Shown in pieces: positions 8,311 to 32,580 of a stretch of DNA of 34,792 nucleotides. The DNA comes from Opitutaceae bacterium (GTDB lineage: Bacteria > Verrucomicrobiota > Verrucomicrobiia > Opitutales > Opitutaceae): contig JAPKDW010000015.1 of the NCBI GenBank assembly GCA_028822375.1, positions 1 through 34,792 on the forward strand, written 5' to 3'. The position numbers and the translations under genes were made by a program. How positions within the stretch are numbered: position 1 is the stretch's first letter; each line of letters starts with the position of its first letter. The notes beneath the pieces are model-generated. The model saw only the letters and a program-made list of their open reading frames with translations, ran no database searches and was not told the origin of the DNA.

Positions 8311-8418
8311 GCCCACGATGCAGCGAAGCGAAGATGGCAAAGCAATAGCACCAATTCTCACGAATCAAAATTATATTCTTCACTAGATTATTCGTGAAGA
8401 TTCGAGTGATTCGTGGGA
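8311..8418. repeat. Family C element (CACGAAT flavour), left arm disrupted
   Basis: T7 then GCCCACGA...ATTCTCACGAAT; intact right arm 8390-8418 ATTCGTG-AAG-ATTCGAG-TG-ATTCGTGGGA. Confidence 0.75.
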
Positions 8419-20182: not shown

Positions 20183-21952
20183 CTAGCTGGATTGTTCAGT
20201 GGGAGAAAGGCGGACGGCGATGATGCAGACATCGTCTTCAAGCTCCTTTGCTCCGGCGACTTCTTTGAGCTCTTCGGCGATCGCTCGCAATTGTTCGGGG
20301 AGTTCGTCGCTTTCATGGTCTAGCACGGCTTCCTCGAGGTTTTCGACGCCCCATTCTTCGCCGCTTTTGGTTTTCTGCTCGATGATGCCGTCCGTGAAAA
20401 AGAGAAACTCGGTCATATCGGTGAGCGGGAACTGGTTACAGTTGAAGCTTTCTTCTGGAATGAGCCCGAGAGCCGGGCCTATTTTATCTACAGGGCAAAG
20501 TTCGAAGTGGGTGCCAGAGCTGTCTTGCACGCGCCAAATGGGGGCGGGGTGACCAGCGTTGGCAATATGGACTTCGCCTTTATCGAGATCTATGACGGTG
20601 TAGAGAGCAGTGACGAATCGCGGAAACTCTTCGTCTTCCGCTAGGGCGGTTAGGGCTTCGTTGAGGTGTTGAAGGACTTTGCCCGGTTCGCTGAGCAGGA
20701 CGTGTGTTTCGAGCATGAGGCCGCGAATGAGCATGGTGACGAGAGCGGCTTTGATGCCGTGGCCCATCACATCGCAAACGAGAATGCCGAGTTGGTTTTC
20801 GGAGATCGGAATGAGGTAAAAGAAATCGCCCGCTAAGTGATGGCTGGGAGTGTAGAGGTAGCTAGCCTCGAGGTTCCAGTGACTGCCATTTCGGGTGTAC
20901 ATAGGGCGTTCGTCGAAACCTATGGACATGAGTTGCTCTTGAAGCTGACGAGCGACGAATAGTTCGGTCTCGAATTGTTGATTCTTTTTAGCGAGCGCTT
21001 CACCGGTGGCATGGGCTCGTTCTTCGGCTAGTTTTTGCTCAGTGATATCGTGAGTCATCCCAACGATGCCTTCTGGCGTGCCATCGGGACCGATAAGGGG
21101 GACTTTCGAATTGAGTACCCAGCGCTGCTTCCCGAGAAGGCTTTGATTAAACTCGAGTTCGTTTATTACGGGCTCGCCGGTCCTGATTATCTCCGCGTCC
21201 ATGGCTTCGATACGACGAGCCTGATCGTTGTCGCGAATGTCAGAAATTTTCTTGCCTACGACTTCTTCCCGCGTTTTTAGGTCGAATGCTTTGCGATACT
21301 CTTCGTTAATCATGACGAAGCGGTCATCGGCGTCGCGCACGAATATACGACAAGGCATTATCTTGATGATTGCGTCCAGGAGGTGGTGTTGCCGGTCGAG
21401 TTCGAGCTCGGCTCGCTTTTGATTGGTGATGTCGCGGGAAAGTCCGAACGTTCCGCAGATTTCACCGTTTGCGTTGCGCAAGGGCAATTTGGTGGTGAGG
21501 ACCCATTTCTCGCTCCCATCGCTTTGCAGGTCGCGTTCCTCTTTGAAGTACCAACCTTTGCCGGTACGGATGATTTCCTGTTCGGCTTCGAATTTGGCGG
21601 AGGCGTATTCGTTTTGGAATTGGTCGAAATCAGATTTTCCTATCGCTTCACCTGGGTGCTTGAAGCCAAAAAAATGAGCGAGGGAATGGTTGATGCAGGT
21701 GAATCTGCTTTTCCGGTCCTTGAAGAAAACATGATCGGGCAGCGATTCCATAAGTTGCCAGAACAGGAGGTTAGACTCTATGCCTTCCTTTTGCTCGGCT
21801 TCGTGTCCGGTGTCATAGGCCATTTGGAGGGCTTGACGAAGATCGGAGACGGACATGTTTTCGAGCGTTGCTGCATCTTGGTTCAAATCGATGCCCAGTG
21901 TTTTTCGACCGATTAGCTGAAGCGGTTCAGAAAGCTCTTTGGATGGTTTCAT
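20183..21952 (-). CDS. PAS-PAS-PP2C (SpoIIE/RsbU-like) serine phosphatase
   Basis: 589 aa; two PAS domains each with GxxGMTHDITEQK/GTFGLSRDITNQK ends; HHLAGDFFYLIPISENQLGILVCDVMGHGIKAALVTMLIRGL; TDGIIEQK. Confidence 0.94.
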   Translation of the reverse strand: MKPSKELSEPLQLIGRKTLGIDLNQDAATLENMSVSDLRQALQMAYDTGHEAEQKEGIESNLLFWQLMESLPDHVFFKDRKSRFTCINHSLAHFFGFKHPGEAIGKSDFDQFQNEYASAKFEAEQEIIRTGKGWYFKEERDLQSDGSEKWVLTTKLPLRNANGEICGTFGLSRDITNQKRAELELDRQHHLLDAIIKIMPCRIFVRDADDRFVMINEEYRKAFDLKTREEVVGKKISDIRDNDQARRIEAMDAEIIRTGEPVINELEFNQSLLGKQRWVLNSKVPLIGPDGTPEGIVGMTHDITEQKLAEERAHATGEALAKKNQQFETELFVARQLQEQLMSIGFDERPMYTRNGSHWNLEASYLYTPSHHLAGDFFYLIPISENQLGILVCDVMGHGIKAALVTMLIRGLMLETHVLLSEPGKVLQHLNEALTALAEDEEFPRFVTALYTVIDLDKGEVHIANAGHPAPIWRVQDSSGTHFELCPVDKIGPALGLIPEESFNCNQFPLTDMTEFLFFTDGIIEQKTKSGEEWGVENLEEAVLDHESDELPEQLRAIAEELKEVAGAKELEDDVCIIAVRLSPTEQSS

Positions 21953-24123: not shown

Positions 24124-24227
24124 GCCCACGAATCCCACGAATTTTCACGAATGACGAAAATTGCGACCGCTGATTCAAGTAATGGAAGGGTCTTATGAAT
24201 TCGTGAATATTGGTGGAATTCGTGGGT
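24124..24227. repeat. Family C element (CACGAAT flavour, 29-nt arms)
   Basis: GCC-CACGAAT-CC-CACGAAT-TTT-CACGAAT (24124-24152) and ATTCGTG-AAT-ATTGGTG-GA-ATTCGTGGG (from 24199). Confidence 0.9.
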
Positions 24228-24308
24228 AGTCTAATTAATAATGCGGACTTTTCCCCAAAGAATTCCCTTATTGCTTTCTTGGGATAGGGGGGTGAGGATG
24301 CGAGTTTG

Positions 24309-24746
24309 ATGAAAGATCAGCTTAAGCAACTTCACCAAAAAGCCCGCTTCGCCCGTGATGCGAACTCCACTCAAGCCTATGGAGCCGCATTGGCCGCAAT
24401 TCAGGAGGGAGAAGTCCGAGCAAACCAGGATTTCGATGAAGCGAAAATGCTGTCAGTAGTCGAGAAGGAAGCAGGCAAATTCAAGGAATCGGCCGAGGCG
24501 TTTGCGAAGGCGGGTCGGGATAAACAAGCTACCGAACTGACGGCTTGCATGGAATTACTAGTCGCTCTGTTGCCGTCCAAGCTCGATGAAGCAGCTTACC
24601 CGAAGCTCGTCGCGAATGCGATTGAGGCAACGGGAGCATCGTCGATGAAAGAGATGGGCTTAGTTATGGCGGCTTTGAAGAAAGAGCATGGTTCAGTTTT
24701 GGAGATGCGCATCGCTTCGGCTGCCGTTAAAAACGCTTTAGGGTAG
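24309..24746 (+). CDS. GatB/YqeY domain-containing protein
   Basis: MKDQLKQLHQKARFARDANSTQAYGAALAAIQEGEVR ... MLSVVEKEAGKFKESAEAFAKAGRDKQATEL...LLPSKLDEAAYPKLVANAIEATGASSMKEMGLVMAALK. Confidence 0.88.
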   Translation: MKDQLKQLHQKARFARDANSTQAYGAALAAIQEGEVRANQDFDEAKMLSVVEKEAGKFKESAEAFAKAGRDKQATELTACMELLVALLPSKLDEAAYPKLVANAIEATGASSMKEMGLVMAALKKEHGSVLEMRIASAAVKNALG

Positions 24747-24767
24747 GTTCGAGGCGCTGGGTTTATT

Positions 24768-24938
24768 GCCCACAGATAGCAGCGATATACATAGATGATC
24801 TGAGTGGGTCGATCTTTGCTGTCGAGAAATGCGCGCCGAGACGTCTTGCGCCACCTATCTAGCAAATAAGGTGGATCGAGGCCTCTGGACTCGGTTTTTA
24901 TCCATCAGTATCTGTGAACATCCGAGCAATCTGTGGGA
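24768..24938. repeat. Family D element (CACAGAT flavour, 29-nt arms) with family E nested in its loop (24836-24894)
   Basis: Arms 24768-24796 GCC-CACAGAT-AG-CAGCGAT-ATA-CATAGAT and 24910-24938 ATCTGTG-AAC-ATCCGAG-CA-ATCTGTGGGA; nested CCGAGACGTCTTGCGCCACCT...AAGGTGGATCGAGGCCTCTGGACTCGG. Confidence 0.88.
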
Positions 24939-28135: not shown

Positions 28136-28248
28136 GCCCACGAATAACACGAATTTGCACGAATCAAATTGGTGTGTTGTGATGTTTGTGGAAGTGGTTT
28201 GATGTTTGCTCGCGATCAAATTTGTGAAGATTCGTGAGATTCGTGGGG
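28136..28248. repeat. Family C element (CACGAAT flavour, 29-nt arms)
   Basis: 28136-28164 GCC-CACGAAT-AA-CACGAAT-TTG-CACGAAT and 28220-28248 ATTTGTG-AAG-ATTCGTG-AG-ATTCGTGGGG. Confidence 0.92.
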
Positions 28249-29625: not shown

Positions 29626-29773
29626 GCCCACAGATTGCACGGTTTGTCACAGATGTTTTTGATCGGTCGGATATCTATAGATTGAGTTGATTGGTATAGA
29701 TTTGGATTCATCGAGCTTGGTTTAGTGGAAATATAAAAAATCTTATCAGTGTAAATCTGAGCAATCTGTGGGC
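29626..29773. repeat. Family D element (CACAGAT flavour, 29-nt arms)
   Basis: 29626-29654 GCC-CACAGAT-TG-CACGGTT-TGT-CACAGAT and 29745-29773 ATCAGTG-TAA-ATCTGAG-CA-ATCTGTGGGC; preceded by T8. Confidence 0.92.
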
Positions 29774-32473: not shown

Positions 32474-32580
32474 GCCTACAGATTGCTCGGATGCTCGCAG
32501 ATGTAAATGGGCAGTAACCGAGTCCTCCGGACTCGGTTGTTCTTCGTCAGTATCTGTGAAAATCCGCGCAATCCGTGGGC
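32474..32580. repeat. Family D element with family E-like hairpin nested in its loop (32517-32537)
   Basis: 32474-32502 GCC-TACAGAT-TG-CTCGGAT-GCT-CGCAGAT and 32552-32580 ATCTGTG-AAA-ATCCGCG-CA-ATCCGTGGGC; loop hairpin CCGAGTCC-TCC-GGACTCGG. Confidence 0.9.

Follow-up and report, generated by a model that had tools for sequence, protein, structure and literature searches.

The window, that is, the whole stretch of 34,792 nucleotides of Opitutaceae DNA that was analysed, corresponds to contig C358 of its own genome, G000 (4.56 Mb, 457 contigs, 93% complete). Six loci in it carry inverted pairs of arms, each arm consisting of three heptamers with start-to-start spacings of 9 and 10 nt, and the heptamer is CACGAAT in family C and CACAGAT in family D. 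All twelve arms are intergenic, and every element lies 3' of at least one gene. A preliminary description of this DNA had proposed one architecture shared by the six loci, and all six were found in the window; the left arm at 8311-8418 is disrupted and begins with AAGCAAT. The features are as follows.

8311-8318: disrupted GCCCACGA stub of element 1, followed by unrelated sequence before the left arm
8340..8365, + strand: element 1, family C (CACGAAT), left arm, disrupted, first heptamer AAGCAAT
8390..8415, - strand: element 1, family C, right arm
24127..24152, + strand: element 2, family C, left arm, three perfect CACGAAT heptamers at 9/10
24199..24224, - strand: element 2, family C, right arm; element not found at this site in the closest relative, G002
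24771..24796, + strand: element 3, family D (CACAGAT), left arm, degenerate
24910..24935, - strand: element 3, family D, right arm; the G002 site has about 50 nt without the element
28139..28164, + strand: element 4, family C, left arm, between cmk and aroA
28220..28245, - strand: element 4, family C, right arm; decayed relic in G002
29629..29654, + strand: element 5, family D, left arm, between aroA and tyrA
29745..29770, - strand: element 5, family D, right arm; absent in G002, where about 15 nt separates the aligned genes
32477..32502, + strand: element 6, family D, left arm, at a convergent end adjoining a threonyl-tRNA synthetase-like gene
32552..32577, - strand: element 6, family D, right arm; a decayed related element occupies the same site in G002

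Three successive CACNNAT heptamers matched 11 times in the window at (9,10), and 0 to 2 times at any other spacing tested (7-13). The variant first heptamer AAGCAAT or TAGCAAT recurs in the genome (window 8311-8365; L285, L289, L293, L298 and L299) with GATGGC-like sequence 5' of the arm, and appears to be a composite that includes a further short repeat.

Across the whole of G000, 71 CACGAAT (9,10) arms were found at up to 3 mismatches, of which 22 are perfect, together with 53 matches to the CACAGAT (9,10) pattern at the same tolerance. About 9 of the latter belong to a third flavour, CACTGAT, leaving about 44 CACAGAT arms, only 8 of them perfect; family D is thus more degenerate than family C. 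The flavours thus exceed the two described earlier. In relatives the layout recurs with different heptamers, among them CACGGAT and CACGAAA, in agreement with the earlier mention of similar strings in environmental genomes, and neither random spacing nor a lack of further copies was seen in the scan of the genome and its relatives. The heptamers within one element change together, all three and usually all six, the middle one being the most variable (CTCGAAT, CTCAGAT). The 9/10 period holds in the window and in G000, but other genomes have spacings of 8/8, 8/9, 9/9, 10/10, 10/11 and 11/11, and it is a property of the lineage rather than universal. That spacing is conserved more than heptamer sequence was confirmed. 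The arms are bordered by GCC/GGC or AAC/GTT. Across 40 elements of the own genome the spacers vary strongly (1.6-1.7 bits in family C), whereas most positions within the heptamers hardly vary.

In some relatives the two arms of a pair lie hundreds of bases apart, and in G027 such a pair encloses an open reading frame of 124 aa that belongs to PF13366. The family is named GxxExxY in NCBIfam (TIGR04256 / PF13366 PDDEXK_3), and membership is clear at L055, with 127 bits against a curated cut-off of 35 for TIGR04256 and an E value of 9e-38 for PF13366. The databases used give no function for it, and no paper on GxxExxY together with repeats was found among the PMC open-access literature. The preliminary description overlooked this cognate gene because the window contains no GxxExxY gene. 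G000 has one intact copy, its sole full-length PF13366 gene, at C176:2020-2367 between leuB and alaS, flanked by CACGAAT arms at 1976-2001 and 2414-2439.

We searched for enclosed genes with a heptamer-blind detector, which required three mutually similar heptamers and a mirrored partner with equal heptamer and spacing; a gene was called enclosed when arms lay within 150 nt on both of its sides at a score of 4 or less. Among the GxxExxY genes of relatives, 46 of 90 were enclosed by arms with the same heptamer; among those of named GTDB genomes from at least 12 phyla including archaea, the count was 43 of 78. Both fractions are lower bounds, as many "negative" flanks hold further arms with irregular spacing. 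Culturable carriers with arms include Cerasicoccus frondis (L169), Tangfeifania diversioriginum (L201) and Mariprofundus EBB-1 (L203). The named genomes span Planctomycetota, Pseudomonadota, Chloroflexota, Verrucomicrobiota, Acidobacteriota, Bacteroidota, Methanosarcinales archaea and others. None of 504 shuffled flanks (270 and 234) passed, the best shuffled score being 9 against the threshold of 4; control genes were never enclosed (0/28 alaS, 0/7 aroA), and distant flanks had arms in 1/30 and 0/64 cases. Most units measure only 420-550 bp, the start and stop codons frequently lying no more than about 10 nt from the arms, and both arms of one element have a common heptamer and spacing (flavours such as CACGAAT, CGCGAAT and CACAGAG). 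There is thus firm support for the association of GxxExxY with arms of iterated heptamers. In relatives, one type of GxxExxY gene, with about 10 members, had no heptamer arms. Other small palindromes were noted in the flanks of armless genes (L095, L096, L098, L102, L103, L105, L107, L109, L121, L123 and L148), and at L137 (G015:C1:5002833-5004783) two adjacent PF13366 matches share one open frame of 277 aa, a tandem GxxExxY protein. Five relatives occurred on viral contigs, with arms at 1 of 4 tested, which does not show viruses to be main carriers; eight plasmid records carry a relative, as judged by gene presence alone.

The AlphaFold2 model of the protein is a single domain with a pLDDT of 96. 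Its best Foldseek match was Cas4 SSO0001 (probability 1.00, E 3e-3, TM 0.52), and the other nearest solved folds were AdnAB, LHK-Exo, Bax1 and the Cas4-like ACE1; no structure match for the model reached E 0.001. A PDB profile search gave only weak matches to T7 endonuclease I (E 0.09), and PADLOC gave weak matches to Cas4. Residues D62, E72, K74 and Q86 are invariant in 35 sequences, as is Y90, in the pattern D...ExK...QxxxY. GxxExxY is modelled as a PD-(D/E)XK fold of the Cas4/RecB type with its catalytic residues intact, and this invariant pattern fits an active nuclease better than a mere binding protein.

We built a tree of 97 GxxExxY proteins (117 columns, weakly resolved) and mapped the features of the arms onto it. 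Spacing class required 39 changes against a shuffled minimum of 56, and the last heptamer base only 7 against 23; the corresponding numbers were 23 against 27 for heptamer position 4 and 16 against 18 for position 5, while position 2 and arm orientation did not differ from chance. Phyla were mixed on the tree (29 changes; shuffled mean 33.5, minimum 28). Since spacing and heptamer bases track the nuclease tree and phyla are mixed, the gene and its arms travel as a unit. Thr at domain residue 3 was always paired with G at heptamer position 5 (49/49), Gly, Cys or Val with A (12/12), and Ser with either; the association was not significant allowing for phylogeny (independent pairs p=0.25, an underpowered comparison), and residue 3 is a suggestive candidate for a specificity contact.

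In most genomes examined, the gene-less copies share their flavour with a nuclease of that genome, as counted with the nuclease's own arms included. The best case was G009, where 36 of 38 (10,10) arms were of the CGCGAAT type, in agreement with its alaS-linked nuclease in both heptamer and phase; CGCGAAT (10,10) was absent from G007, G004 and G023. Of 15 arms in G023, 11 were CACGGAT (10,10), matching L139, and the same correspondence was seen for CGCRGAG (9,9) in G007 (L035), CACAGAA (9,9) in G022 (L140) and CGCAAAG (9,9) in G031 (L050/L100). A prediction fixed beforehand, that CGCGGAT (9,10) counts would peak in G013 and G011, was partly met: G013 was highest with 21, but G006 (9) stood above G011 (7) at the threshold set beforehand, whereas at one mismatch or less G013 (9) was first and G011 (6) second. 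Family C is the flavour of the nuclease resident in G000 and has more perfect copies than family D. Family D has no intact cognate in G000, but in G018/G022 the orthologous nuclease at leuB-alaS has this flavour; we infer that it is the older flavour, and an overlooked D nuclease is possible because the genome is 93% complete. Abundant flavours without an intact cognate nuclease in the same genome were CACAGAT and CACTGAT (G000) and CACGAAA (G015).

Several observations indicate mobility. Duplicated pairs in G031 and G015 and differences in presence between species point to copying of the unit to new sites, and there are also relics in decay and a copy with an internal deletion. On G031:C92, two gene-bearing units separated by 2.3 kb are near-identical inside but differ completely in their outer flanks, the identity reaching about 12 nt beyond the left arm and about 8 nt beyond the right arm; this whole-unit duplication is a single case, and local duplication is possible at 2.3 kb. 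The gene-less copies L314 and L323 of G015 are likewise near-identical with unrelated flanks, and their borders fall at GCC/GGC. G002, with about 80% nucleotide identity, lacks the elements at 24124, 24768 and 29626 and retains those at 28136 and 32474 as decayed relics. At the aroA-cmk relic the heptamers are lost and the flanking bases survive, and it reads as a neutral relic rather than a maintained site. No counterpart of this element was visible in G001, G004, G007 and G009. On contig C189 of G000 (L339, C189:800-2200), CGCGGAG (9,9) arms surround an internally deleted GxxExxY gene of which the N- and C-terminal ends are left, an intermediate between gene-bearing and gene-less forms. No target-site duplication was seen by eye beside 19 copies in G015, and the empty sites of G002 are too diverged for exact borders. 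As separate observations, CACGAAA elements are nested inside CACGGAT elements at L316, L317, L326 and L330 of G015, and three of these nested elements follow the same GGATAAATTCC-like left flank; the decayed aroA-cmk heptamer element is adjoined by an inverted repeat of another kind, GGTAGCGGCCGATCTCC...GGAGATCGGCCGCTACC, at L265 / G002:C267 ~21640-21940.

The leuB-alaS interval (L234-L247) held GxxExxY units or relics in all 11 genomes examined within the genus. They belong to two nuclease clades that are distant from each other and differ in flavour, and several are pseudogenes; in some other genomes the leuB-alaS interval is free of such units. This recurrent presence across the genus looks like vertical inheritance, not frequent jumping.

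We consider it likely that the window loci are gene-less members of a tiny mobile-element family built on the GxxExxY nuclease. The best reading would be a REPIN/RAYT-like system in which a Cas4/RecB-like nuclease replaces the HUH transposase. From the sequences we infer that GxxExxY would bind the heptamers, cut, and mobilise the copies. The complete unit, of about 420-550 bp, would consist of an inward-facing triple-heptamer arm, one single-domain GxxExxY gene of about 120 aa and a mirrored arm. A multimer of the nuclease may read the heptamers directly, about one helical turn apart, in each arm, bring both arms together and cut at the outer GCC/GGC borders, and movement or copying in trans would then be open to any arm pair of the right flavour. 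Mobilisation would be limited to copies whose heptamers and phasing are good, and heptamers and spacing would be kept in this way while spacers and loops drift; a nuclease lineage that changes its specificity would spread a new flavour. The earlier alternatives for the period, selection or inheritance by copying, are each partly true, with heptamers seemingly constrained for mobilisation and not for function at each site.

On balance we also favour the broader view that these units form a previously unrecognised minimal class of mobile element in at least 12 bacterial and archaeal phyla, whose sole protein would be a stand-alone PD-(D/E)XK nuclease reading an iterated-heptamer code, and in which lineage switches of heptamer and phase would each spread a new dispersed repeat family. 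The newness of the class is judged from the presumed catalysis of movement and from a search of open PMC papers.

Conserved heptamers, free spacers and near-helical phasing would also be expected if GxxExxY were a domesticated host nucleoid or regulatory protein and the arm pairs its binding sites, selected locus by locus, and the retention of the gene at leuB-alaS throughout the genus is in keeping with this. We regard it as unlikely. The orthologous aroA-cmk copy of G002 has lost its heptamers while flanking bases survive, and because it has decayed, heptamers do not look constrained for function at each site. Moreover, most sites differ between species, each change in the protein would need six heptamers altered in every element, and the catalytic residues are invariant.

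It seems improbable that another enzyme, such as an HUH Y1/RAYT or DDE transposase, mobilises the arm pairs with GxxExxY as a frequent passenger. Some flavours do occur without an intact GxxExxY in the same genome, and G000 has four Y1_Tnp matches; however, GxxExxY is the sole gene of the unit, and spacing and heptamer track its tree. The Y1_Tnp genes were rejected as mobilisers, as no CACGAAT, CACAGAT, CACTGAT or CGCGGAG arms were found in the stretches around these loci in G000.

Selection of a folded form, as RNA or single-stranded DNA hairpins (terminators, mRNA stabilisers or REP-type repeats), is very unlikely and already largely refuted. Folding was better than in shuffles for the five elements tested (z -2.7 to -5.8), which is expected of any inverted repeat. 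In 28 CACGAAT elements, however, the spacer bases of the two arms matched no better (0.386) than those of arms paired at random (0.364; p=0.31), showing no covariation, and of 65 heptamer deviations only 3 were common to both arms, so that they are almost never compensated. These results speak for heptamers that are read directly, at a fixed phase, rather than for a hairpin whose folding is selected, and leave the RNA or hairpin reading implied by the preliminary description unsupported. None of the terminator-like sites listed coincides with an element, and their total is at background; the terminator reading was rejected on this count and on the lack of covariation, and an Rfam scan of the window matched no family. 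Chance or low-complexity repetition is hardly credible, short as the heptamers are, with reversed patterns giving 0 matches in the whole of G000 and shuffles and off-spacings at or near 0.

In REPIN/RAYT systems, REP-associated tyrosine transposases mobilise doublets of REP sequences (PMC3116915, PMC8049555, PMC2817692). The heptamer elements resemble them in being intergenic inverted pairs with a variable loop that represent a non-autonomous unit in tens of copies, in having a single-domain enzyme gene beside or between cognate repeats, and in showing several repeat-enzyme groups per genome with an enzyme gene that persists vertically for long. They differ in that the enzyme is a PD-(D/E)XK nuclease, whereas RAYT is an HUH Y1 transposase, and in that the arms are iterated at fixed phase without pairing constraint, whereas REPs are palindromes with a GTAG/CGTC tag; heptamer and spacing are also lineage-specific and extend over at least 12 phyla including archaea. 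The heptamer system is thus not a member of REPIN/RAYT, although it works alike: the enzyme class is wrong, and the tag and pairing constraint are missing. As in MITEs, gene-less derivatives share ends with the autonomous unit and an internally deleted intermediate exists (C189), but the unit has no DDE, serine or tyrosine enzyme, no target duplication was seen by eye, its ends are iterated heptamers, and loops are mostly unrelated among copies. GxxExxY shares the fold and the D...ExK...QxxxY motif with Cas4/RecB-family nucleases, but is a stand-alone domain (about 115 residues) that is bounded by repeats and not CRISPR-linked here.

The known enzyme classes of transposition include DDE, HUH, serine, tyrosine, DEDD and Cas1. 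If GxxExxY does mobilise the repeats, a further enzyme class would act alone in transposition. A common family with no assigned function and common unexplained environmental repeats become one testable system, and the flavours and spacings found in nature already provide a data set on how a nuclease of about 120 residues reads DNA.

S23 genes (PF05635, the 23S rRNA intervening-sequence four-helix protein) were dropped as a clean negative control, as they have period-7 arrays of their own, and were replaced by alaS, aroA and distant flanks. At 9/10 spacing, 0 of 30 S23 genes had arms. They were instead seen to be flanked by inverted, contiguous heptamer arrays with a period of 7, such as GGAGTCAGGAGTCAGGAGTC, and examples among the relatives (L064-L093) are L067, L074, L086 and L092. 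A strict (7,7) test was positive for 8 of 29 S23 genes, against none of about 170 GxxExxY genes and 0 of 28 alaS genes, and these arrays are possibly a second, parallel system of a small protein and heptamers.
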